Source of the DNA: Thermosipho ferrireducens
GTDB taxonomy: Bacteria > Thermotogota > Thermotogae > Thermotogales > Fervidobacteriaceae
NCBI RefSeq assembly: GCF_017358165.1
Contig: NZ_CP071446.1
Location: 1,302,001 to 1,366,000 of the forward strand
Direction: 5' to 3'
Length of the DNA: 64,000 nt
Of this stretch, positions 45,583-61,150 are shown one piece after another (the first letter of the stretch is position 1; each line of letters opens with the position of its first letter). Both the position numbers and the translations under genes were made by a program. Under the pieces are notes generated by a model, which did no database searches, was not told the DNA's origin, and saw nothing but the letters and a program-made list of their open reading frames with translations.

Positions 45583-47721
45583 ATGATATATTTTATACCA
45601 CCAGTTTTAGCTATTTTCTTTGCTTTGTTAAACTATTCTCTTGTGGTGAAACATTCAGAAGGTACCGATAAAATGAAAGAAATTTCACAAGCTATACGTA
45701 AAGGTGCTGACGCCTTTATTTCTCATGAGTACTCTGTTGTTTTTAAATTGGCAGTTCCAATTGCTATTGTTATAGGAATACTAACAGCATGGTATGTGGG
45801 AGTTTCATTTTTAATAGGGGCAATTATGAGCTCTCTGGCAGGATTTATTGGAATGAAAATAGCAACTCGTGCAAATGTCAGGGTTGCTAATAAAGCACGG
45901 ACTACGAAAGATATATCTCCCACTCTTAAATTAGCTTTCCAGGGTGGTTCAGTAATGGGACTTTCAGTTGGTGGATTTGCCTTGCTGGGATTAGTTATTG
46001 TGTTTTATCTCTTCAGACACCAGTTAGAACCTGATCAGCTTGTAATAGTAAAAAATTTTCTGGGAGTTAATTTCATTCCATTTGCCATGACTGTATCAGG
46101 TTATGCTCTTGGATGCTCTATAATTGCCATGTTTGATAGGGTTGGTGGAGGTGTTTATACAAAAGCAGCAGATATGGCAGCTGATCTGGTTGGAAAAACA
46201 GAACTCAAGCTTCCAGAAGATGACCCGAGAAATCCTGCCACCATTGCTGATAACGTCGGTGATAATGTAGGTGATGTTGCCGGATTAGGAGCAGATTTAT
46301 TGGAGAGTTATGTTGGTTCAATTCTTTCAGCGATTGTTCTTGCGTCTTATATTTATGCTCTTTCTGGTTCTAAATTTTACGATACGGCGAAAAAATTAAT
46401 TTATTATCCACTCAGTTATACAATGATAGGACTTTTAGCGAGCATAATTGGAATTTATTACGTTATTTTGAAAAAGGGTACCAAAAAACCCCACAGGGAT
46501 CTGAACGTTGCCCTTTTTACTTCAGCTGCTTTAAGTTTATTGGGGAATTTAATTTTTACCATCCTGTTCTTTAAAGATGTGAAAAATCTTGAGGTATTTG
46601 GTTTTAAATTTGGAGCACTTTCACCTTATGCGGCTTCTGTCCTTGGTGTATTCTCAGGTATAATAATAGGACTTTTAGCTGAGTATTACACATCTGATGA
46701 TTTTAAACCTACCAGAATACTTAGTGAAAAATCGAAACAGGGTACAGCAATTGTTATAAGTGGTGGAATGGCCCTGGGCATGAGAAGTGTGTTTTTGCCA
46801 TCCCTTTTCTTATTCTTTGCAATTTTACTTGCGGACTACTTTTCAGGGATTTACGGAGTGGCCATGGCCTCTGTAGGTATGCTTTCATTTGTTGCGACAT
46901 CAGTTTCAGTGGATTCGTACGGTCCTATAGCTGATAATGCTGGTGGTATAAGTGAAATGGCCGAGCTTGAGCCTCAGGTCAGAGAAATAACAGATAAACT
47001 GGACATGGTCGGGAACACCACCGCAGCCATAGGAAAAGGATTTGCCATAGGTTCAGCCGCACTTGCAGCTTTGTCTTTATTTTCATCGTACATCTTTTCT
47101 CAAGCTTCTCCCGGCCAGGTAGCTGCTGATGTTCTTGGTCTTTTGAAATTGAACATGATAAATGCACGAACTCTTTCTGGAGCCATTGTTGGTGCTGCTC
47201 TTCCATACATGTTCAGTGGTATACTTATAGAATCTGTAGTGAAATCTGCAGCTATTATGGTGGATGAAATTAGAAGACAGTTTAGGGAAATACCAGGTAT
47301 TTTAGAGGGAAAAGCAAAACCAGATTATGAAAGGTGTATCACTATAAGCGCATCTGGGGCGTTAAAACAGATGGTTACACCTACGCTTATAGCAGTTACA
47401 ACACCATTAATTTCCGGATTTTTGTTTGGCACAGAATTTGTTGGTGGTGTGCTTGTTGGAACTACATTAAGTGGAATAATGCTTGCCTTGTTTTCTGCAA
47501 ATTCTGGTGGAGCATGGGATAATGCTAAAAAGCATCTCGAGCAGGGAAGACTTGAAGGTTTGGGAAAAGGAACACCTGAGCACAGTGCTCTTGTTATAGG
47601 GGATACAGTTGGTGATCCTTTGAAAGATACAGTGGGACCAAGTCTTGATATTCTTATAAAAATCATGTCTGTTGTTTCGTTGATAATGGCTCCACTATTT
47701 ATGGTTTATCATTTGTTCTAA
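45583..47721 (+). CDS. hppA: Membrane ion-pumping pyrophosphatase, K+-dependent type
   Basis: A 712-aa membrane protein with about 16 helices that hydrolyses pyrophosphate and pumps Na+ and/or H+ outward. The catalytic segments are [59 protein letters not shown] and [16 protein letters not shown]. The GNTTAA sequence has Ala where K+-independent enzymes have Lys, so this is the K+-dependent group, which includes the Na+-pumping enzyme of Thermotoga maritima. Na+ pumping is therefore likely but not proven. SD GGAGGG precedes ATG. Own transcription start is likely, divergent from the two-component genes. Confidence 0.96.
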
Positions 47722-49481: not shown

Positions 49482-49510
49482 ATGCGCTGTCAAAAGACAG
49501 CGCATTTTTT
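49482..49510 (+). terminator. Intrinsic terminator after the hppA-ecfT-fruK group
   Basis: Perfect 10-base-pair stem ATGCGCTGTC / GACAGCGCAT, loop AAAA, then six T. Confidence 0.95.
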
Positions 49511-49587: not shown

Positions 49588-49592
49588 CGCTA

Positions 49593-49612
49593 ATATGATA
49601 GGTGAATCATAT
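49593..49612 (+). promoter_or_regulatory. Inverted-repeat operator candidate (ATATGAT-N6-ATCATAT)
   Basis: Perfect 7-base arms with a 6-base spacer, just downstream of the candidate -10 and 20 bases before the first gene of the operon. Position and symmetry suit a TetR-type repressor, and the operon encodes one made of two fused TetR units. The link is inference. Confidence 0.55.
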
Positions 49613-49632
49613 ATATTATCGAGGTGAAGAGA

Positions 49633-50412
49633 ATGCCTGTTTATAAAGGAATATATTATGAAGTTTATGGGAAAGGTGAACCAGTTGTACTAACGAACGG
49701 GATAATGATGAGTACAGATAGCTGGAAATGGCATATTGAAAAATTGTCGAAATACTTTACGGTTATAGTCTTTGATTTTATTGATCAAGGAAAAAGCAAG
49801 AAAATGGAAAGGTCATATAAAATAGATTTGCAAGTAAAAGTACTGAAAGAACTTTTATATTTTTTGAATATGAAAGCGTACAACATTGTGGGGTTAAGCT
49901 ATGGAGGTCAGGTGGCGTTAAAATTGGTTATAGATTTCCCTGATATTGTAAAAAAATTAGTACTTTCTAATGTAACTGCTAAAGTTGATAATTTTTTATT
50001 GTGTGTTGGAAATGTATGGGATTTTGCATGTAAGTTGAATGAAGGCGAAATATTTTATAACCTTGCACTTCCTTTTATCTACGGAAAATCATTTTACAAT
50101 GACAATATTGAATTCTTGCTTCAGAGGAAAGAATTATTCAAAGAATATTTAACAAAAGAGTGGTTTGAAGGTGTTAGACGATTAATTAAATCAAATGAAG
50201 ATTTTAACGTAACTTCTAAGCTGAAGAGTATTAAAGTTCCAACTTTATTGATTTGTTCTGATGAAGATTTTATTACCCCGTATCAGGATATGCTGGAAAT
50301 GTCAAAAAATATTAAAAATTCTGAGGTTGTGACAGTTCATGGAGCCGGACATGGCCTTTTCCTGGAGAAAAAAGAATTATGGGTTAATTTAATTAAAGGT
50401 TTTTTAATGTGA
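49633..50412 (+). CDS. Alpha/beta-hydrolase, first gene of the operon
   Basis: A 259-aa cytoplasmic serine hydrolase. Oxyanion region VVLTNGIMMSTDSW, then TVIVFDFIDQGKS, the nucleophile elbow VGLSYGGQVA with Ser near 91, the acid in LLICSDEDFITP and the His in VHGAGHGLFLEKKE: a complete Ser-Asp-His triad. Fold and length match esterases, C-C bond hydrolases and lactonases; substrate unknown. I chose ATG 49633, 6 bases after GAGGTG, over the GTG within that site. It opens the operon for an acyl/keto compound, so a first cleavage step on an imported ester or lactone is plausible. Confidence 0.88.
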   Translation: MPVYKGIYYEVYGKGEPVVLTNGIMMSTDSWKWHIEKLSKYFTVIVFDFIDQGKSKKMERSYKIDLQVKVLKELLYFLNMKAYNIVGLSYGGQVALKLVIDFPDIVKKLVLSNVTAKVDNFLLCVGNVWDFACKLNEGEIFYNLALPFIYGKSFYNDNIEFLLQRKELFKEYLTKEWFEGVRRLIKSNEDFNVTSKLKSIKVPTLLICSDEDFITPYQDMLEMSKNIKNSEVVTVHGAGHGLFLEKKELWVNLIKGFLM

Positions 50413-50446
50413 GAAGTGATTCATTAAGATGAAAGGGGACGGAAAC

Positions 50447-51460
50447 ATGCACATTGGAATAATAGGATTGGGCGTATACGTTCCGGAGAATTACATGACA
50501 TATAAAGATATATCGCAGATAACAGGTATACCAGAAAATGTTGTCAGAGATAAAATGGGAATTGTAAAAAAGCCGATTCCTTCGCAAAAAGATACCACAA
50601 GCTTTATGGGAATAATGGCTGCAAAAGAAGCTATTGAAAATGCAGGGATTTCCCCTGGAGAGATAGATGTTGTTATATGGAATGGGGCGCAACACAAAGA
50701 TTATCCTAACTGGCTTGCAGGAGTTAAAGTTGCTTACGAGATAGGCGCATTTAATTCGTGGAGTTTTGATATGGAAGCGATGTGTGGTTCTATGATTGTG
50801 GGAATGGAAGTGGCGAAATCTTTAATGATGGCTAATTCTGATATAAATACAGTTTTACTGGTTAGCGGATATAGAAACGTTGATATGATCAATTATAATC
50901 ATAAACCAACTTCTTTTATGTTTGATGTGGGAGCCGGGGGTTCTGCTGTTATCTTGAAAAAAAATGCCAGAAAGAATGTAGTTTTTTCAACTCATTCAAT
51001 TGTTGATGGTAGCTTTTCAGAAGATGTTATTGTACCGGTGTTTGGTTCTAAAAAGTGGCCTCCAAAACGTGAAGATGTTGAAAACTTTTATTTTCACATT
51101 TACCAGCCCGATGTTTTTAAAGAAAAACTTTCGAAAGTGACTCTTAGTAATTTTTATGATGTGATTGATAAAGCTCTTGAAAAAAGTGGTTTTACACGTA
51201 AAGACATAGGATATCTTGCTATTTTGCATATTAAAAGGTCTGCACATATAGAAGTTTTGAAAACGCTTAAGCTGTCAGAAAACCAAACAACTTACCTGGA
51301 AAACTACGGTCACATTGGGCAAAATGATCAAATAATTTCCATTGTGGAAGGTTTAAGCTCTGGAAAAATAAAAAATGGAACTCTTATAGTAATGGTAGGT
51401 GCAGGTGTTGGCTGGACGTGGAATGCAGGAGTAATAAAATGGGGTGATTATAGAGAATGA
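50447..51460 (+). CDS. Divergent 3-oxoacyl-ACP synthase III-like (thiolase-fold) enzyme
   Basis: A 337-aa protein of the FabH/HMG-CoA-synthase-like branch: start MHIGIIGLGVYVPENYMT, SFMGIMAAKEAIENAG, VVIWNGAQ, and the active Cys in MEAMCGSMIVGMEVA. Downstream, LHIKRSAH provides a His at the FabH His position. Where FabH has the Asn motif GNTSAAS, this protein has YGHIGQND, so a His replaces the Asn. A C-H-H set is unusual for the KAS III group. It may condense or cleave a beta-keto acyl-CoA rather than start fatty acid synthesis. The start of the next gene overlaps its stop by 4 bases. Confidence 0.82.
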   Translation: MHIGIIGLGVYVPENYMTYKDISQITGIPENVVRDKMGIVKKPIPSQKDTTSFMGIMAAKEAIENAGISPGEIDVVIWNGAQHKDYPNWLAGVKVAYEIGAFNSWSFDMEAMCGSMIVGMEVAKSLMMANSDINTVLLVSGYRNVDMINYNHKPTSFMFDVGAGGSAVILKKNARKNVVFSTHSIVDGSFSEDVIVPVFGSKKWPPKREDVENFYFHIYQPDVFKEKLSKVTLSNFYDVIDKALEKSGFTRKDIGYLAILHIKRSAHIEVLKTLKLSENQTTYLENYGHIGQNDQIISIVEGLSSGKIKNGTLIVMVGAGVGWTWNAGVIKWGDYRE

Positions 51461-52590
51461 GACGAAATCCGGTAAGAATAGATGGAAAGCTCACAAAGGA
51501 TAAAATAATAAAAGCTTCTTATGAACTTTTTTCTTCGTTAAATTACAACGATGTTTCTGTTTCAAAAATAGTAAAAAAAGCAGGGATAAGTACAGGAGCG
51601 TTTTATCAGTACTTTTCCAATAAAGAATCATTGTTCAAAACAATAGTTCAGAAAATATTAAAAGATATGGCTGAATTTTTAAAGAAAGACACAGTAGAGA
51701 ATGTAGTAGAAACTTACATAAATTATGCTTTAAAAAACAAGAAGAAAGTGAAAGTACTTCATGAAGCTGAATTTATTCATAATTGGGTTAGTGAAAGCTA
51801 TGAGATGATTTTGAGAAACGTAACAGAGAAGTTTGTTTCAGATGATGCAGGTTATGTATTTTTTTGGGGATCTTTAAGGTTTTATGTTATTTATAACATT
51901 TTGTGGAAAGAACAGAGTGTTGATAATAAAGATCTTGTTACTTTTTTGAAAGTAGGTTTTGGGAAGCCAGATTATTCGGTTTCACCGGAAGTTTATGACT
52001 ATAAATATACACCTGTGGCAATTGATCTGGAGAATACGAAATTAAAGCTCTTGATAAGCGCGGAAGAATTGTTTGGCAGAAAAGGTTATTCAAAGACTCA
52101 AATTTCCGAAATTACTCAAAACGCTGGAGTAGCTCAAGGAACGTTTTATATATATTACAAAAGAAAGAAAGAAATTTTAGAGGAGCTTGTAATGAAAACA
52201 AATAGAAATTTAAGACTTTCTGTAAAGCTGGCCGTTCAGAAATTTGAGAATAGAATTGACGCAGAAATAGCCGGTTTTTATGCTTTTTTAAAGTTTTTCA
52301 GTCACCATATTAACATGTACAAGATTGTTAGAGAAAGTGAATTTGTGATTCAAGAAAAGGTTCTGGAGTATTATGAAAAAATAAAAACTTCTTATCTTTT
52401 GCCATTAGAGCGGGCAATGGAAAAACAAGAAATTGTGAAATACGATGCTCATAATTTAGCAGTTTTTTTGATGGGTATAGGACATTTTTTAGGAATTGAA
52501 CTACTATTAAAGAGAAAGGCAAATGATGCAGATATGATTCGTTTTTTAATAAAACTTTCAAAATATATAACAGGTGGTCTGGAGGTGTAG
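51457..52590 (+). CDS. Double TetR regulator: two fused TetR/AcrR units
   Basis: A 377-aa protein, twice the usual TetR length. The first DNA-binding domain spans about residues 13-60 (IIKASYELFSSLNYNDVSVS; GISTGAFYQYFSNKESLF). After about 130 residues of helical ligand-domain sequence comes a second complete TetR N-domain at about 194-241 (LLISAEELFGRKGYSKTQIS; GVAQGTFYIYYKRKKEI), then a second helical region with the start of a ligand-domain pattern. Both recognition helices keep the G-x-F-Y-x-Y-x-K/R pattern. It is probably the local repressor, released by a pathway intermediate. It overlaps the synthase gene and precedes the CoA-transferase gene by 2 bases. Confidence 0.85.
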   Translation: MRRNPVRIDGKLTKDKIIKASYELFSSLNYNDVSVSKIVKKAGISTGAFYQYFSNKESLFKTIVQKILKDMAEFLKKDTVENVVETYINYALKNKKKVKVLHEAEFIHNWVSESYEMILRNVTEKFVSDDAGYVFFWGSLRFYVIYNILWKEQSVDNKDLVTFLKVGFGKPDYSVSPEVYDYKYTPVAIDLENTKLKLLISAEELFGRKGYSKTQISEITQNAGVAQGTFYIYYKRKKEILEELVMKTNRNLRLSVKLAVQKFENRIDAEIAGFYAFLKFFSHHINMYKIVRESEFVIQEKVLEYYEKIKTSYLLPLERAMEKQEIVKYDAHNLAVFLMGIGHFLGIELLLKRKANDADMIRFLIKLSKYITGGLEV

Positions 52591-52592
52591 TC

Positions 52593-53888
52593 ATGGATTG
52601 GAAAGAAGTGTATAATAGAAAAAAAGCTGATATTGAAAATATTATAAAGTTAGTTCATTCTAACTCTGTAATAGTCGTTGGTATGACACCCATGGAACCG
52701 AAAGTATTTTTACGAAACCTCCATAAAGCAGAAGCATCGAATGTGGATGTTTTCACATGTTTAAATACGGAAGAGTATGATTTTTTTATGGATGAAAAAT
52801 TTGGTGGCCTTTTTAGAAACAATTCATGGTTTTTCGGAGCGTCTAATAGGAAAGCCTGGAAAGAAAAATATAAGACGGTATTTTATGTTCCAAACAATCT
52901 ACATCAAGCGGGAACGAATTTACTTGAAACGCGTGATGTAGATCTATACATAGGCGTTGCTTCTCCTATGGATTCGAAAGGTTTTTTGACATTGTCTGCC
53001 AGTGTGGTATATGAAAAAGACGTTGTTGAAAAAGCAAAAAAGGTTGTTCTTGAGGTCAATCCGAATGCACCGAGAACGCACGGAGATACTCAAGTTCATA
53101 TTTCTGATGTGGATTATATTGTGGAGGTAAACTACAAACTTCCGGAAGTGGAGCTTTTAGAACCTTCTGAACTTGAGAAAAGGATAGCTTTTAATATAGT
53201 AGATTTAATTCAGGATGGTTCAACTATTCAATTAGGAATAGGTGGAATACCAAATGCTGTAGCAAAATTTTTAGTTGAAAAGAGAGATTTAGGTGTTCAT
53301 ACAGAAATGTTTACAGAAAGTATGGTAGATCTTTTTGAGGCAGGAGTTATTAACAACAAAAGAAAAACATTATGGCCCGGGAAATTTGTTTGTACATTTG
53401 CATATGGGACCGAACGAATGTATCAATTTATAGACGATAATCCAGCTGTTTTTTTCTTGAGAGGAAGGTATGTTAATGATCCTTATGTGATCAGTCAAAA
53501 TGAAAAAATGGTAAGTATTAATACAGCGTTGATGGTGGATTTAACGGGAAATGTATGTTCTGAGGCGATTGGTACCAATCATTATAGTGGAACAGGAGGT
53601 CAGCTTGACACACATCGTGGAGCTGTAAAAAGTAGGGATGGAAAAGGAATAATAGCCATAAGATCAACAGCAAAAAATGGGACTATTTCTACTATAGTTC
53701 CGTTGTTGCCAGAAGGCTCTCCTGTTACTATTCCAAGACAGGAACTTGATTATGTGGTAACTGAGTGGGGAGTAGTACAGTTGAGAGGTAAATCTGTTAA
53801 AGCAAGAGCAGAGGCTTTAATATCAATTGCTCATCCAGAATTTAGAAAGTATTTAAAAAAAGAAGCACAAAAGCTTGGATTAATTTGA
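52593..53888 (+). CDS. Acetyl-CoA hydrolase/CoA-transferase family protein (4-hydroxybutyrate/butyrate CoA-transferase type)
   Basis: A 431-aa enzyme that moves CoA between an acyl-CoA, usually acetyl-CoA, and a carboxylate. It has the family's N-domain, then DVDLYIGVASPMDSKGFLTLS, the motif IQLGIGGIPNAVAKFL, the conserved catalytic-type Glu in LGVHTEMFTESMVDLFEAG, and GTGGQLDTHRGAVKS in the C-terminal half. Size and motifs fit the single-chain 4-hydroxybutyrate / butyryl-CoA:acetate CoA-transferases rather than the two-chain SCOT/AtoDA type. In context it would activate a short-chain acid produced by the hydrolase. GGAGGTG 7 bases before ATG. Confidence 0.9.
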   Translation: MDWKEVYNRKKADIENIIKLVHSNSVIVVGMTPMEPKVFLRNLHKAEASNVDVFTCLNTEEYDFFMDEKFGGLFRNNSWFFGASNRKAWKEKYKTVFYVPNNLHQAGTNLLETRDVDLYIGVASPMDSKGFLTLSASVVYEKDVVEKAKKVVLEVNPNAPRTHGDTQVHISDVDYIVEVNYKLPEVELLEPSELEKRIAFNIVDLIQDGSTIQLGIGGIPNAVAKFLVEKRDLGVHTEMFTESMVDLFEAGVINNKRKTLWPGKFVCTFAYGTERMYQFIDDNPAVFFLRGRYVNDPYVISQNEKMVSINTALMVDLTGNVCSEAIGTNHYSGTGGQLDTHRGAVKSRDGKGIIAIRSTAKNGTISTIVPLLPEGSPVTIPRQELDYVVTEWGVVQLRGKSVKARAEALISIAHPEFRKYLKKEAQKLGLI

Positions 53889-53900
53889 GGGAGGGATAAG

Positions 53901-55106
53901 ATGGTTTACATTTTAGGTGCTAAAAGAACAGCTATAGGAACGTTTGCAGGATCATTGAAAAGCATTCCTGCTCCAAAATTGGGAGCTATAGCAGCAAAAG
54001 CTGCTATTGAACAAGCAGGAGTTCCGGCCCGGGATTTTGATGAAACTATTATAGGTTCAATACTTACTGCAGGCCAGGGGATGGGACCTGGCAGACAGGT
54101 TGGAATTTACGCAGGAATTCCTGAAGAAAAGCCGGGATATACGGTTAATATGCTTTGTGGAAGCGGTATGAAAGCAGTAATGATAGGAGCTGTAGATATT
54201 GTCTCAGGGGAAGCTGACCTTGTTTTGACTGGTGGAATTGAAAATATGTCTTTGGCGCCATATTTGATACCACCTTCCGCAAGATATGGATTAAAATTTG
54301 GAAATTTTGAGGTTATTGATCATATGGTGTTAGATGGTCTAACAGATGTATTCAATAACGTTCATATGGGTATAACAGCTGAAAATCTTGCAGAGAAATA
54401 TAATATTACCAGAGAAGAGCAGGACAGGTTTGCTTTTGATAGTCAGCTGAAAGCAAAAAAGGCTATAGAAGCTGGAAGATTCAAAGATGAAATTGTACCT
54501 GTTGAAATTGTCACCAGGAAAGAAACAAAGATTTTTGACACAGATGAGCATCCACGATTCGATATAACACTGGAAAAACTTGCTAAATTAAGACCGGCTT
54601 TCAAAAAAGACGGGACGATAACAGCAGGTAACGCAAGTGGTATAAACGATGGAGGAAGTGCGATAGTTCTTGCAGGTGAAAAGTATGTTGAAAAGAATAA
54701 TTTAAAACCACTTGCTAAAGTGGTTGCATGGGCTCAAGCAGGTGTTGATCCTATGGAAATGGGGTTGGGCCCTGTTCCAGCTACTGAGAAGGTTTTAAAG
54801 AAAGCAGGATTAAAGATAGACGATATAGGACTTATAGAATTAAACGAAGCTTTTGCCGCACAAAGTCTTGCTGTTATAAAACTTTTAAGTGAAAAATTCG
54901 GAGTAGCAACGGAATGGATTCTGGAAAGAACCAATGTAAATGGCGGGGCAATAGCTCTCGGTCATCCAATAGGTGCAAGTGGTAACAGGATAATCGTGAC
55001 ACTTTTATATGAAATGATGAAGAAAAATGTAAAATATGGCCTTGCAACACTTTGTATAGGTGGAGGAATGGGAACGGCGGTTATAATTGAAAATTTAAAT
55101 ATTTAA
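53901..55106 (+). CDS. Thiolase (acetyl-CoA acetyltransferase type)
   Basis: A 401-aa thiolase. The first catalytic Cys is in [15 protein letters not shown], followed by [15 protein letters not shown], and the late motifs [17 protein letters not shown] with the catalytic His and [16 protein letters not shown] with the second Cys. Length matches biosynthetic/degradative acetoacetyl-CoA thiolases. With a CoA-transferase and NAD-type dehydrogenase beside it, splitting of acetoacetyl-CoA or another 3-oxoacyl-CoA into acetyl-CoA is the likely direction. Confidence 0.94.
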
Positions 55107-55120
55107 AAGGAGGGATTTTT

Positions 55121-55864
55121 GTGAGGTTAAAAGATAAAGTCTGTCTTATAACAGGAGCAGCAAGTGGTATTGGTCGCGCGGCGAGTCTGTTATTTTCAAA
55201 AGAAGGGGCAATTGTAGTAGCATGTGATTTGTCTTCTGAACTCCTTGAAAAGTTGAAAGGGGATAACCCGGGACCGGGTGTCATTGAAACTTATGTTTTA
55301 AATGTTACAGACAGAGAACGAATAAAAGAAGTGGTCAGTGAAGTTATCGAAAAATTTGGGAAAATAGACGTTCTTGTAAATAACGCGGGTATAACAAGAG
55401 ATTCTCTTTTACAACGAATGTCTGAGGAAGCCTGGGATGCAGTGATAAATGTAAATTTAAAAGGAGTTTTCAATATGACTCAGGCTGTGGCACCTCACAT
55501 GCTTAGAGCAGGTAAAGGCAGCATAATTAATACTTCCTCTGTTGTGGGAGTTTATGGGAACATTGGTCAAACCAATTATGCTGCTACAAAAGCGGGAGTT
55601 ATTGGTATGACGAAAACGTGGGCAAAAGAATTATCAAGAAAAGGTGCTCAAATAAGAGTTAATGCTGTAGCTCCTGGATTTATAAAAACACCGATGACGG
55701 ATAAAGTTCCAGAAAAAATAGTTGAGGCTATGGAAGAAAAAACACCATTGAAAAGAATGGGGTTACCTGAAGAGGTTGCTTATGTATACCTATTTCTCGC
55801 CTCCGATGAATCATCATATGTAACAGGTCAGGTTATAGGAGTTGATGGGGGATTGACTATTTAA
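55121..55864 (+). CDS. Short-chain dehydrogenase/reductase, NAD(H)-type, FabG-like
   Basis: A 247-aa SDR. The cofactor loop is [10 protein letters not shown], the NNAG motif is [12 protein letters not shown], and the catalytic Ser and YxxxK are in [11 protein letters not shown] and NYAATKAGV. The Asp ending the second strand (VVACDLSSE) favours NAD over NADP, unlike biosynthetic FabG. It is thus more likely a 3-hydroxyacyl-CoA or 3-hydroxybutyrate dehydrogenase working in the oxidative direction. The end [10 protein letters not shown] is typical. GTG start 8 bases from GGAGG. Confidence 0.93.
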
Positions 55865-55905: not shown

Positions 55906-57072
55906 ATGCGTAAATTTTTTGCGATTTTTGTTTTGATGATAGCGGTTTTAATTGTTGCCGAAATAGGAGTTTATCCTGAAAAAGTGGTTATAGGTAGTTT
56001 TCAGGCACTATCCGGTCCTTACGCAATAATTGGCCAGGAAATGACAAAAGGAATGAAAGCTTATTTCAACTGGATTAACAACAGGGGAGGATTATACGGC
56101 AGAAAAATAGAACTTATTGTCGCAGATGATCAATTGAATCCTTCAAAGACAGTTGTTGAGGTTAAACGTTTAGTTGAGCAGGATAAAGTTTTTGCTATTG
56201 TTGGAGGACTTGGAACTTACGGTTGCTTGGCAGTAATGGATTACTTAAATGAAAAAGGTGTGCCTTTTGTCTATCAAGGAGCCGGAACATCAAAGTTAGT
56301 TGTTCCACCAAAAAAATATATATTTGGGGTACAGCCAGACTATACATTGGAGGGTCATATCATAGGCAAATATCTTATAGAAGCACAAGATGCAAAAAAG
56401 ATTGCTATTTTGTACATGAACAATGATATAGGAATAGAAGGTTACAATGCTGTAAAGGATCAACTTTCAAAGTATGGCATAGAACCTGCTTTTGAAGTTT
56501 CTTACAATCCTCTTGAAACTGATTACAGCGCACAGGTCTTAAACTTACTTGATGTGAATCCAGAATTTATCGTTATATATGGATTGATTACAGATACTAT
56601 TAGATGGATTAAAACAATAAGAGATTATGGATTAGAAAGCAGGATAATAACAATATATCCAAATGCTGATCCAAATTTCATACGTCTTGCCGGAGACTAT
56701 GCTGAAGGAATAATATTCACTGGTTGGGTACCATTACCAACCCCAGATAAACCTGAATATGTTAAAGATTTTGAAAGATATGTGAGAATTTTTCAGGAGA
56801 CATATCCAGACCAGGTGCCTTCTTCTTATGCAGCGGCTGGTTTTATTGCAGCGGAAGTCTTTGTAGAAGGTTTGTTGAGAGCAGGAGAAAATCTTACAAG
56901 GGAGACACTTGTGAAAGCGCTTGAAAGTTTTGACCACTGGAGTGGAATTCTTGCAAAAGATATCACATGGAATCAAAATAGAAGACGTGGAAAAGATTCT
57001 ATGTATTTATTAATAGTAAAAGATGGAACATTTACACCTTTGACAGAACTAATAACCTGGGATGGTAAATAA
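55906..57072 (+). CDS. Branched-chain amino acid-type ABC transporter, substrate-binding protein (LivK family)
   Basis: A 388-aa exported binding protein. Signal peptide MRKFFAIFVLMIAVLIVAE without lipobox. The type I periplasmic-binding fold shows KVVIGSFQALSGPYAIIGQEMTKGMKAYFNWINNRGGLYG, LIVADDQLNPSKTVVEVKRLVEQD and FAIVGGLGT. Family members bind leucine-type amino acids, but many bind aromatic acids, short-chain amides or other carboxylates. Because the surrounding genes process acyl-CoA, the ligand is probably a carboxylate or ester rather than an amino acid (inference). GGGGAGGTGG precedes ATG. Confidence 0.93.
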   Translation: MRKFFAIFVLMIAVLIVAEIGVYPEKVVIGSFQALSGPYAIIGQEMTKGMKAYFNWINNRGGLYGRKIELIVADDQLNPSKTVVEVKRLVEQDKVFAIVGGLGTYGCLAVMDYLNEKGVPFVYQGAGTSKLVVPPKKYIFGVQPDYTLEGHIIGKYLIEAQDAKKIAILYMNNDIGIEGYNAVKDQLSKYGIEPAFEVSYNPLETDYSAQVLNLLDVNPEFIVIYGLITDTIRWIKTIRDYGLESRIITIYPNADPNFIRLAGDYAEGIIFTGWVPLPTPDKPEYVKDFERYVRIFQETYPDQVPSSYAAAGFIAAEVFVEGLLRAGENLTRETLVKALESFDHWSGILAKDITWNQNRRRGKDSMYLLIVKDGTFTPLTELITWDGK

Positions 57073-57105: not shown

Positions 57106-57119
57106 GTGAGGTGAATCTG

Positions 57120-57881
57120 GTGTTATTAGAGATTGAAAGGTTGACAGTCCGGTTTGGAGGGTTAGTAGCAGTTGACAATTTTAATATGGAAGTGAACAAG
57201 GGAGTTATACATTCTTTGATTGGTCCAAATGGTGCGGGGAAAACCACTGTTTTTAATGCTATATCAGGACTTGTTAAAAGTTATGGAAAAATAATACTGG
57301 ACAATCATGATATAAGTAAGGTTCCAGCATATAAAAGGGCTTTGTTTGGACTTGGAAGAAGTTTTCAAAATATAATAATTTTTAAATACATGACAGTGTT
57401 GGAAAATCTACTTGTAGGGTATCACCCTCATTTGAATTATTCTTCCTGGGATCAAATTTTCAAAACAAAAAGAGTGAATGCCCTGGAAAAAGAAGCCTGG
57501 GATTTGTCTGTTGAGGTTGCCGATATTGTGGGATTAAAAAACAAATTGGGACTTTTTGCAGGGAATTTGCCTTATGGAATACAAAAATTAATCGATGTTG
57601 GAAGGGCATTGATGTTGAAACCAAAGTTGCTACTTCTTGATGAACCTGCTGCAGGACTCACGGAAGCGGAAACTGAAAAATTCAAAGAAGCTCTTTATAG
57701 AATCAAGAATAAAGGGATAACTGTTTTGCTGGTTGAACATGATATGAATCTTGTAATGGATATTTCGGATAAGATAACGGTTTTAAACTTTGGAAAAAAG
57801 ATAGCTGAAGGTGTTCCAGCGGAAATAGCAAATAATCCAGAGGTTATAAAAGCATATTTAGGAGATGAAATTAGTGCTTAA
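57120..57881 (+). CDS. livG: Liv-type ABC transporter ATPase LivG
   Basis: A 253-aa ATPase. Walker A is LIGPNGAGKTTVFNAISG, the Q-loop and LivG-type GLGRSFQNIIIFKYMTVLENLL are present, and Walker B is LLLLDEPAAGLTEAE. The signature is degenerate: instead of LSYGQ, the segment reads NLPYGIQKLIDVGRAL, keeping the Y-G-x-Q core. H-loop VEHDMNLVM. The GTG at 57120 lies 6 bases after GAGGTG; another GTG at 57111 is inside that site. Overlaps livF by 8 bases. Confidence 0.93.
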   Translation: MLLEIERLTVRFGGLVAVDNFNMEVNKGVIHSLIGPNGAGKTTVFNAISGLVKSYGKIILDNHDISKVPAYKRALFGLGRSFQNIIIFKYMTVLENLLVGYHPHLNYSSWDQIFKTKRVNALEKEAWDLSVEVADIVGLKNKLGLFAGNLPYGIQKLIDVGRALMLKPKLLLLDEPAAGLTEAETEKFKEALYRIKNKGITVLLVEHDMNLVMDISDKITVLNFGKKIAEGVPAEIANNPEVIKAYLGDEISA

Positions 57882-58578
57882 AATAACTAATTTGAAAGTA
57901 AATTATGGACCCATACAGGCTGTGAAAAGTATATCTTTAGAAGTTAAAAAAGGCGAGATTGTATGCCTTTTGGGGCCGAATGGTGCAGGTAAAAGTTCAA
58001 CTTTAAAAGCAATAATGGGAACGGTAAAATCGAAAGGGGAAATAATATTTGAAAAAGAAGATATATCTGGCATTAAAACGCATGAAAGGGTAAGAAAAGG
58101 AATTGTTCTGTGCCCTGAAGGCAGAGGTATTTTTATGGGATTGACTGTATATGAGAATCTTATAGCTGGAGCTTATCTTGTTAATAAATCAAAAATAAAG
58201 GAAAATTTGGAATACGTTTACTCACTTTTCCCAAGACTAAAAGAAAGAAAAAAGCAAGTAGCAGGAACATTGTCAGGTGGAGAACAGCAAATGCTTGCAA
58301 TAGCGCGAGCTTTGATGGCTTCACCAAAATTACTTTTGCTTGATGAGCCTTCCTTGGGACTTGCTCCTATAATTGTTTCTGAAATAGCTAAAATTATAAG
58401 AGATATTAATAAAAAAGGGATTTCAGTGTTACTTGTAGAACAAAATGCCTCGCTTGCTTTGAAGATATCCACATATGGTTATGTGCTTGAAACTGGCAGG
58501 TTAATGCTGCAGGGGAATTCAGAGGAGTTATTAAATAGTGAAGAAGTCAAGAATAAATATTTGGGGGTAAAGAAATGA
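57874..58578 (+). CDS. livF: Liv-type ABC transporter ATPase LivF
   Basis: A 234-aa ATPase. Walker A is LLGPNGAGKSSTLKAIMG, the LivF signature segment is LCPEGRGIFMGLTVYENL, the ABC signature is LSGGEQQMLAIARAL, Walker B is LLLLDEPSLGLAP. The GTG at 57874 (MLKITNLKVNYG) is 9 bases from AGGAG. An ATG at 57865 directly abuts AGGAG and is less likely. Ends overlapping livH by 4 bases. Confidence 0.93.
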   Translation: MLKITNLKVNYGPIQAVKSISLEVKKGEIVCLLGPNGAGKSSTLKAIMGTVKSKGEIIFEKEDISGIKTHERVRKGIVLCPEGRGIFMGLTVYENLIAGAYLVNKSKIKENLEYVYSLFPRLKERKKQVAGTLSGGEQQMLAIARALMASPKLLLLDEPSLGLAPIIVSEIAKIIRDINKKGISVLLVEQNASLALKISTYGYVLETGRLMLQGNSEELLNSEEVKNKYLGVKK

Positions 58579-59450
58579 TAAATCAGATATTATTGGGGCT
58601 TTCCACTGGCGCTATTTATTCTTTAGTGGCTCTTGGACTTGTGATGATTTATAAAATAACAGGTGTGGTGAACTTTGCATTTGGAAACATGGGGATGTTT
58701 TTTGTATATATAGCTTACTGGTTTATTTCCATGAATGTTAATTTCTGGATAGGAATTATTTTTTCGCTTATTCTGGCAGGTGTTATGGGATATTTTCTGG
58801 AAAAATTTGGGCTTAGGTCGATTAGACATCTGTCACATGGTTCTATGCTGATAGTCACCTTTGGTGTACTGATGGTTCTTGAAGGACTTGCTGTGCAGAT
58901 CTGGGGTACTGATTATAAAACTTTTCCAGAAATTATAAAAGGAAGGCCATATGTGTTTAGAGGAGATTTTGGAATTCTGGTTTTAAGAAAACAGGATGTG
59001 TTAATATTTGCACTGTTGATAATGGTTTCTATTTTGATATTTTTTCTGATGAAATACACAAAGTTTGGAATCGCAATTAGAGCAGTATCGGAAAATGAAG
59101 AAATATCAAGTTATATGGGGATTAATGTGGGGAAAATCTTTTCATTTTCGTGGATATTTGGAACAGTTGTTGCCACGGGAGTTGGTATTCTTGTTGCGCC
59201 GAAAACTTTTGTTTCACCTTCCATGCTCCTGTTCTACCAGCTTGAAGGGTTTACTGCTGCTGTTCTCGGGGGATTTGAAAGCTTTACAGGGGCTATATTT
59301 GGTGGCTTATTACTTGGAGTTTTAGAAAATCTCGTTGGAAAGTACATATCAAATGATTTGAAATCGACGTTTTCTTTATTACTCATTATTGTTGTTTTAC
59401 TTTTATTTCCTAACGGAATATTTGGAATGAAAAAGAGGGAAAGAGTATGA
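58575..59450 (+). CDS. livH: Liv-type ABC transporter permease LivH
   Basis: A 291-aa membrane subunit with about eight hydrophobic segments. Family pattern: GLSTGAIYSLVALGLVMIYKITGVVNFAFGNMGM at the start, FGIAIRAVSENEEISSYMGINVGK (the ATPase-contact loop), and GGFESFTGAIFGGLLLGVLENLVG at the end. Overlaps livF and livM by 4 bases each, so the importer genes are tightly coupled. Confidence 0.94.
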   Translation: MINQILLGLSTGAIYSLVALGLVMIYKITGVVNFAFGNMGMFFVYIAYWFISMNVNFWIGIIFSLILAGVMGYFLEKFGLRSIRHLSHGSMLIVTFGVLMVLEGLAVQIWGTDYKTFPEIIKGRPYVFRGDFGILVLRKQDVLIFALLIMVSILIFFLMKYTKFGIAIRAVSENEEISSYMGINVGKIFSFSWIFGTVVATGVGILVAPKTFVSPSMLLFYQLEGFTAAVLGGFESFTGAIFGGLLLGVLENLVGKYISNDLKSTFSLLLIIVVLLLFPNGIFGMKKRERV

Positions 59451-61150
59451 AGAAGATTGTATGGATTTTGATATTGTTGATTCTTCCTGTTTTGCTTTTA
59501 AAATTAACGTTTGTTCTTACAATAATAACGCTGGTGATGATATACTCTATTGCTGCCATTGGTTTGAATTTAATAATGGGTTATGTAGGACAAATTTCTA
59601 TAGGTCACGCAGCATTTATGAGTATTGGCGCATATACATCGGCGATTTTTGTTTTAAGATTCGATGTTCCGATCCTGGTAGGGGTTATTTTAGGAACATT
59701 GCTTTCTTTTATATTTGGTATAATTCTTGGATTTCCCGCTTTAAGACTTTCCGGTTTTTATCTTGCAATTGCAACAATGGGGTTTGGAATAGCTGTTGAG
59801 CAAATAATGGGAGCCTGGGAAAATGTTACAGGTGGACATATAGGGATTAGAAATATTCCGTTTTACGATTTTGCTAATAATGATCTTTTAAAATATTATT
59901 TTGTTTTTGCAATTCTTTTTATTTCCTATTATATATTTGATTCGCTGATAAATGGGAAATATGGAAGAGCATGGAAAACAATTCGAGAAAATGAGAAAGC
60001 AGCTGTTGCAATGGGAATAAATCTTTCAAAATACAAGGTTCTGGGGTTTGCAATAGGTTCAGCGTTTTCTGGACTTGCGGGTGCACTTTATGCACATGTG
60101 GTTGGTTATATTTCACCTGCAGATTTTGGACTTGCAAAATCTCTGGATCTTCTCACGATAGTCGTAATAGGAGGTCTTGGATTAAATTTTGGTCCATTTT
60201 TTGGCTCAATTATTTACACAGGATTACCATTTTTTCTCAGCAGAACAGAAATTTCACTTTCAATAGTGTTTGGTTCATTATTGATAGTAGTTGTTTTATT
60301 TATGCCAAGGGGTATAGGGTACTACGTATATCTTCTTGAACTAAAATATTTGTCTAAGATCTCTGCATGGATTAGAAGGGGGAGAAAAATGCGCGGAAAG
60401 TTAATTAAAACTCGTATAGGAAATATTCATTATCTTGAATCGGGACAGGGTGAAAACAATATCCTTTTTGTTCATGGAAATTTTGCAAGTTCTCTGTGGT
60501 ACAAAGAACTTATGAATCTACTCCCTGAAAATTATAAAGCATTTGCTCTTGATCTTCCAAATTTTGGGTATTCTGATCCAATTGATAATATTAGTATTCA
60601 TTCTTATGCCGAAGCTCTAAATGCCTTTGTAGAAGCAGTTAATCTTGATAAATTTATCCTTGTTGGTCATTCACTTGGTGGTGCTGTAGTAATTGATTAT
60701 TTGATAAATTACAGTGAAAAAGTGGAAAAGTTGATTCTTGTCGATCCAGCTCCAATTGACGGTTTAAAAACACCTGAAGAAAGCTACCCAATACTCGAGT
60801 TGTACAGAAATAATCCTGAGCTTCTTAAAAAAGCTATTAAAGCTATAGCACCGACATACACTAACGATAATTTTTTTGATGAAGCAGTTTCAGATGCTTT
60901 GAGAATGAATCCAAAGTGCTTTACAGAAAATGCAAGAGCATTAGAAAAAATAAATTATACAAAAGAAGTTAAAAAAATAAATACACCGGTTACTGTTATA
61001 TGGGGAGATAAAGATATAATTCTTTCAAAAGAACAAATGGAAAAGACTTCAAAAGCTTTTAAAAATGGTAAATTGATAACTCTATCCGGGATTGGACATA
61101 GTCCGATTTTAGAAGCCCCGGATAGAGTTTTAAATGTGGTAATCCAGTAA
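59447..61150 (+). CDS. livM: LivM permease fused in frame to an alpha/beta-hydrolase
   Basis: The frame of 567 aa has two parts. Residues 1 to about 314 are a full LivM permease (LNLIMGYVGQISIGHAAFMS, GFPALRLSGFYLAIATMGFG, AWKTIRENEKAAVAMGINLSKYK, VIGGLGLNFGPFFGS). Residues about 315-567 are a full alpha/beta-hydrolase (VHGNFASSLWY, nucleophile in LVGHSLGGAVVIDYL, acid in VIWGDKD, His in LSGIGHSPILE). At the junction lies an internal AAGGGGGAG, 4 bases before an in-frame ATG at 60389. The hydrolase could thus be made as a separate protein, as a fusion, or both. LivM's usual cytoplasmic C-terminus would place the hydrolase inside the cell. Confidence 0.9.
   Translation: MKKIVWILILLILPVLLLKLTFVLTIITLVMIYSIAAIGLNLIMGYVGQISIGHAAFMSIGAYTSAIFVLRFDVPILVGVILGTLLSFIFGIILGFPALRLSGFYLAIATMGFGIAVEQIMGAWENVTGGHIGIRNIPFYDFANNDLLKYYFVFAILFISYYIFDSLINGKYGRAWKTIRENEKAAVAMGINLSKYKVLGFAIGSAFSGLAGALYAHVVGYISPADFGLAKSLDLLTIVVIGGLGLNFGPFFGSIIYTGLPFFLSRTEISLSIVFGSLLIVVVLFMPRGIGYYVYLLELKYLSKISAWIRRGRKMRGKLIKTRIGNIHYLESGQGENNILFVHGNFASSLWYKELMNLLPENYKAFALDLPNFGYSDPIDNISIHSYAEALNAFVEAVNLDKFILVGHSLGGAVVIDYLINYSEKVEKLILVDPAPIDGLKTPEESYPILELYRNNPELLKKAIKAIAPTYTNDNFFDEAVSDALRMNPKCFTENARALEKINYTKEVKKINTPVTVIWGDKDIILSKEQMEKTSKAFKNGKLITLSGIGHSPILEAPDRVLNVVIQ
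61078..61129 (+). repeat. Nested inverted repeat in the 3' end of the livM-hydrolase frame
   Basis: Perfect 13-base arms AACTCTATCCGGG (61078-61090) and CCCGGATAGAGTT (61117-61129) enclose a smaller hairpin GGAC-ATA-GTCC. It is within coding sequence 21 bases before the stop. With T-rich sequence after it, it may act as the operon's terminator. Confidence 0.6.

Follow-up and report, generated by a model that had tools for sequence, protein, structure and literature searches.

Analysis of the window, a stretch of 64,000 nucleotides from Thermosipho ferrireducens, revealed a 377-aa regulator with two TetR units in one chain (51457–52590, + strand, ATG start), which is likely to be a single-chain, acyl-CoA-responsive repressor that reads an asymmetric operator and senses mainly via its C-terminal half. 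TetR units normally pair as homodimers of single-unit chains. The Pfam TetR_N profile (PF00440) matched the 377-aa chain at 1.1e-27 in two stretches, the helix-turn-helix of the N unit at residues 17–61 (51505–51639, + strand; 54.6 bits) and that of the C unit at residues 201–244 (52057–52188, + strand; 50.1 bits), and the C-terminal half by itself matched at 1.8e-12. The initial annotation had read the chain as two TetR units, each with a helical domain. This was borne out by the TetR_N profile search, in which both N-domains proved TetR-like and scored far higher than the curated cut-off of 24 bits, and by the AlphaFold2 model, whose secondary structure, together with Foldseek matches to TetR chains, placed a full TetR-type all-helical ligand/dimerisation domain after each helix-turn-helix. 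A genome search with PF00440 detected four TetR-type genes in the 1.98-Mb genome, and only the product of 51457–52590 contained two units.

A chance read-through of two genes was ruled out, since the double TetR was matched (E ≤ 1e-10) in 71 of 103 Thermotogota genomes and 27 of 38 genera, with both units within one open frame in nearly all of them. Doubles also occurred outside Thermotogota, in Blastocatellia, deltaproteobacteria, Caldisericum, a spirochaete and others. Judged from these sequences, the fusion is old within Thermotogota. A tree built from single TetRs and both kinds of unit placed the C units with the singles (100/98) and the N units apart; thus the C unit is the half most like the widespread single-unit TetRs. 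When long and distant outgroup rows were left out, all N units fell on one side of a branch (99% SH-aLRT) of the tree, which is unrooted. One ancient fusion event would be the simplest reading, which the unrooted tree fits but does not prove. Single-unit relatives of the C half in several phyla adjoin PRK06840-like KAS III genes, hydrolases and Liv-type importers.

The AlphaFold2 model of the 377-aa protein, computed from an alignment of 40 sequences, showed an intramolecular pseudo-dimer (mean pLDDT 95.5, pTM 0.91). A Foldseek search of the PDB returned Sulfolobus FadR as the top match for one unit, and Mce3R of Mycobacterium tuberculosis (PDB 9b7y) as the sole whole-chain match within the best 50, with a TMq of 0.61 over 410 columns, compared with at most 0.46 for single-unit TetR chains; the rmsd of 8.4 Å indicates an arrangement that is similar to that of Mce3R, not identical. 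A second double, from a deltaproteobacterium and modelled with an alignment of doubles from the genome-contig scan only, gave the same picture (pLDDT 88.1, pTM 0.86, Mce3R TMq 0.56). Because the models of both doubles are confident and Mce3R aligns over the whole chain, the two units are predicted to pair within the chain, and at the level of structure prediction the pairing proposed in the initial annotation held.

Mce3R is the solved precedent for this architecture, which is therefore not new: it is a double TetR with intrachain pairing seen by cryo-EM, and 204 putative double TetRs have been predicted in Actinomycetes (PMC11667970). The Thermotogota protein shares with it two TetR units per chain, the intramolecular pseudo-dimer (by prediction) and lipid/CoA-type gene surroundings, in addition to the whole-chain Foldseek alignment, and its predicted operator, going by comparative sequence, would resemble that of Mce3R in being nonpalindromic in most Thermotogota, but identity in the structural alignment was 15% and each has its own operator and gene set. 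The profile match to Mce3R covered only positions 2–130 and a helix-turn-helix stretch at 207–259, and the neighbouring genes differed, a pattern that does not indicate orthology. A literature search for double TetRs beyond mycobacteria found nothing useful; GplR1, encountered in that search, showed no sign of a double unit in the accessible portion of its source. Engineered single-chain Tet transactivators (PMC1797012), as far as the accessible part of that paper describes them, are also covalently joined TetR pairs, but they are man-made, whereas the fusion in Thermotogota is natural and its two units differ.

The best match of the C unit in both sequence and fold was FadR of Sulfolobus acidocaldarius (PDB 6el2/6en8; PMC6449355), with 156 residues aligned without gaps at 1.8e-26. 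In FadR, R73 and R86 contact CoA, and mutating them weakens the acyl-CoA response (PMC6449355). In the ungapped alignment these residues correspond to R253 and R266 of the C unit (codons 253–266, 52213–52254, + strand), and column counts showed Arg in 32 of 34 C units at each position and in 21/21 and 19/21 single TetRs, respectively. The N units had no conserved Arg in these columns, where that of the 377-aa protein has A72 and a gap, so that the FadR-type pair of CoA-contacting arginines was found in the C unit alone. Mce3R, by comparison with Fad35R and KstR2, keeps its CoA-contacting residues only in part (PMC11667970), unlike the FadR-type pair, which is kept in the Thermotogota double, in the C unit only. 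FadR also belongs to a CoA-linked catabolic gene cluster, but it is a single unit that forms a homodimer on a semi-palindromic 16-bp operator and has no counterpart of the N unit. Since the arginine pair is kept in C units, analogy with FadR supports acyl-CoA as the ligand of the C unit, with the acyl group left unspecified. The N unit may have some ligand of its own. The annotation's overall picture of a two-unit regulator was thus supported in its two units, their predicted intrachain pairing and its two half-sites, but not in its two different ligands, because recognised acyl-CoA-contacting arginines were present in the C unit only.

The regulator gene lies inside an operon, as indicated by a 4-nt overlap with the preceding KAS III-like gene and a distance of 2 nt to the next gene. 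All genes of this operon are on the + strand. A terminator-like hairpin (49482–49505, + strand) is located ahead of it, and the first gene encodes an alpha/beta hydrolase (49624–50412), followed by the KAS III-like enzyme (50429–51460; NCBIfam PRK06840, 467 bits against a cut-off of 315). Downstream of the regulator are an acetyl/butyryl-CoA:acetate-type CoA-transferase (52593–53888), an acetyl-CoA C-acyltransferase (thiolase; 53901–55106), a FabG-type short-chain dehydrogenase/reductase (SDR; 55121–55864), and a complete branched-chain-type ABC importer that comprises a LivK-type substrate-binding protein (55906–57072), LivG-type (57111–57881) and LivF-type (57865–58578) ABC ATPases, a LivH-type permease (58575–59450) and a LivM-type permease fused to an alpha/beta hydrolase (59447–61150). 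We infer that the operon serves to import a carboxylic acid, activate it with CoA and cleave it thiolytically, in the catabolic direction. Olefin (OleABCD) biosynthesis, prompted by the combination of KAS III, hydrolase, AMP-ligase and SDR, was considered and set aside, as the importer, CoA-transferase and thiolase indicate a catabolic role and other KAS III models match far worse than PRK06840.

Among 40 neighbourhoods of the regulator, a CoA-transferase was present in 33, a substrate-binding protein in 30, a thiolase and a reductase in 22 each, KAS III in 17 and a hydrolase in 9. Across the 103 Thermotogota genomes, the KAS III orthologue occurred in 55, all of which contain the double TetR, and in none of those without it (Fisher test). 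In three loci of one genus (L206, L207 and L208; g2), the PRK06840-type gene is replaced, ahead of the regulator, by a distant KAS III paralogue that shares about 22% identity with the KAS III-like enzyme of 50429–51460. In the LivM–hydrolase fusion, BPD_transp_2 spans residues 23–262 and the alpha/beta hydrolase residues 338–558; the 40 neighbourhoods gave a count of 20 long counterparts (>500 aligned residues), and a Trueperaceae cluster (L116) encodes a separate hydrolase that is 41% identical to part of the fusion. The joining of a hydrolase to the importer suggests that the substrate is perhaps an ester, a lactone or similar. Elsewhere, a CRISPR-like array with the repeat GTTTCCATCTCTTTCAGAGAGAACCTTCTTTCGGAC is located upstream of the cluster at L069 (G064:C1:1099000-1117000), and 45583–47721 of the window encodes a 712-aa membrane protein that, judged by eye, resembles an ion-pumping pyrophosphatase.

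Comparison of upstream regions across Thermotogota revealed a common 14-bp box, TGAAAGGTGATTCA or near variants (TGAnAGGTGAwTCA). With up to one mismatch, the 14-mer was found at 17 sites in 41 loci, against 0 in three shuffled sets; the two-mismatch class of these loci contained 17 sites against 9 expected, a class in which chance matches occur. Upstream of the T. ferrireducens operon, predicted operator 1 (TGATAGGTGAATCA; 49596–49609, + strand) has two mismatches from the plain consensus, as does possible operator 2 (TGAGAAGTGATTCA; 50410–50423, + strand), which overlaps the hydrolase gene at its end, immediately ahead of the KAS III-like gene. The first is an exact fit to the relaxed pattern TGANAGGTGAWTCA, and the single exact match to TGAWAGGTGAWTCA in the whole genome is at 49596–49609. 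The repeat at 49593–49612, which the initial annotation had named for a check of DNA binding, therefore holds the predicted box at the genome's only exact match. The second copy is a possible site, weaker by its sequence yet well placed. A −10-like hexamer (49589–49594) ends one base before predicted operator 1, and across sites a TATAAT-like hexamer ended at this offset with a mean of 3.9 of 6 matches, compared with 1.6–2.5 at other offsets, so that the transcription start would lie under a bound chain.

The pattern TGANAGGTGAWTCA was detected in 37 of the 103 genomes, each of which has the double TetR (37 of 71, against 0 of the 32 that lack it; Fisher p = 2e-8, shared ancestry ignored); a reversed-pattern control gave 1 match. 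The exact 14-mer was absent from 34 of the 71 double-TetR genomes, and in one family (f2) variants such as TGATAACTGATTCA, seen by eye only, lie ahead of KAS III. A minority of exact box matches sit within unrelated genes, probably by chance. The box also precedes thiolase and reductase genes that are encoded apart from the regulator in ten genomes (two genera); one genome has it ahead of a separate KAS III gene, and five have it ahead of hydrolase genes. That the box accompanies these genes even away from the regulator is the strongest sign, at the level of comparative sequence, for its predicted role. At L205, position 1861 (G074:C133), an exact operator match lies directly ahead of a 289-aa ORF, possibly another member of the regulon. 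The sharing of the core box by single-unit TetRs of other phyla would fit a box that belongs to a different regulator, with the double TetR merely travelling with the operon. We regard this as very improbable, since within the phylum the exact box is confined to double-TetR genomes and the single-unit TetRs that have it are close relatives of the C unit, several of them beside KAS III-like genes.

Two copies of the box in the same orientation were spaced by exactly 23 bp in eight distinct loci and by 25 bp in two. Operators that often come in two copies would suit a conventional homodimer, in which N pairs with N and C with C across chains, giving two pairs with separate operators and separate ligands; this is the usual mode of TetR pairing, and Mce3R chains do associate further into dimers (PMC11667970). 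However, the paired operators of the eight loci are direct repeats of nearly one sequence, not two different palindromes, and the packing was confidently intramolecular in two independent double-TetR models, and we judge such a homodimer improbable.

The symmetry of the operator differed between single-unit and double regulators. Single-unit TetRs beside PRK06840-like KAS III genes in other phyla (L106, L116, L127 and L145) are about 39–44% identical to the C unit and share with the double the core operator box in several loci, as well as KAS III, a hydrolase and a Liv-type importer; where examined, an AMP-binding acyl-CoA synthetase replaces the CoA-transferase. Their operator, unlike that of most Thermotogota doubles, retains both outer arms, the box extending to a 21-bp dyad, TGAnAGGTGAwTCAnnTnTCA. 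Because these relatives match the first 14 bases too, the 14-mer by itself is no proof of a double reader. CA was present at positions 20–21 in 12 of 14 single-unit loci but in only 3 of 21 Thermotogota double loci (really 20, because L046 and L075 are from the same genome), and in 0 of 17 once L044, L045, L060 and L066, members of one family (tentatively Kosmotogaceae), were set aside; non-Thermotogota doubles were intermediate (5/10). The number of outer-arm matches also differed between singles and Thermotogota doubles (Mann–Whitney p = 4e-4). Thus, judged by comparative sequence, in most Thermotogota doubles the predicted operator appears nonpalindromic and lacks the outer right arm, whereas it is more symmetric in L044, L045, L060 and L066, which, as well as half of the non-Thermotogota doubles, retain this arm whole or in part. 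A perfect 14-bp palindrome, TGAATCATGATTCA, was not favoured as the single-unit operator, as many matches fit the 21-bp dyad better. The 21 bp may be occupied by a single dimer of the single-unit relatives or by two that overlap, as described for Sulfolobus FadR.

Sites in all groups were picked and oriented by the same left-hand core, which makes the comparison between groups fair but overstates the absolute asymmetry. Orientation by the better left arm, the non-independence of the loci and the right arm retained in some doubles all leave room for the asymmetry to be an artefact of site choice and AT-rich flanks, the site being in fact symmetric and read as by the single-unit relatives. We consider this unlikely, since the same selection applied to singles gave the sharply different CA counts and outer-arm matches above, and since the direct-repeat pairs are all in one orientation. 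The two different half-sites proposed in the initial annotation are accordingly supported by the asymmetry of the conserved operator in most Thermotogota.

In the single-chain mechanism that we favour, the N unit would pack against the C unit of its own chain, as subunits do in ordinary TetR dimers, so that one polypeptide would have two different recognition helices. The chain would bind the asymmetric 14-bp site TGAnAGGTGAwTCA at 49596–49609, just past the −10 element of its own operon, and perhaps also the second site before the KAS III-like gene (50410–50423), and when bound would block transcription of the gene set for import, CoA activation and thiolysis. An acyl-CoA of the pathway would then bind the C unit and release the chain from the DNA. 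The N unit, with no recognisable CoA site, would serve mainly in DNA recognition and pairing.

We further propose, tentatively and as one plausible history, that throughout the phylum a TetR homodimer became a covalent heterodimer whose units share out the work. Acyl-CoA sensing and the original half-site would have stayed with the C unit, the N unit would have no sensor and would read a diverged half-site, and from an ancestral 21-bp palindrome the operator would have shed the outer arm. If this is true, singles with symmetric operators and doubles with partly symmetric ones represent stages from homodimer to covalent heterodimer, a plausible path along which operator symmetry was lost. Double TetRs have so far been described mainly in actinobacteria, with one solved example found; here they form a large family in thermophiles, for which our analysis adds the size and spread, a predicted operator and regulon, a one-sided CoA site and close single-unit relatives for comparison. 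With this set it becomes testable how a reader of palindromes can evolve into a reader of asymmetric sites. Single-chain biosensors in which the two recognition helices differ could be built on this natural scaffold, and an uncharacterised CoA-linked operon of Thermotogota gains a likely regulator.
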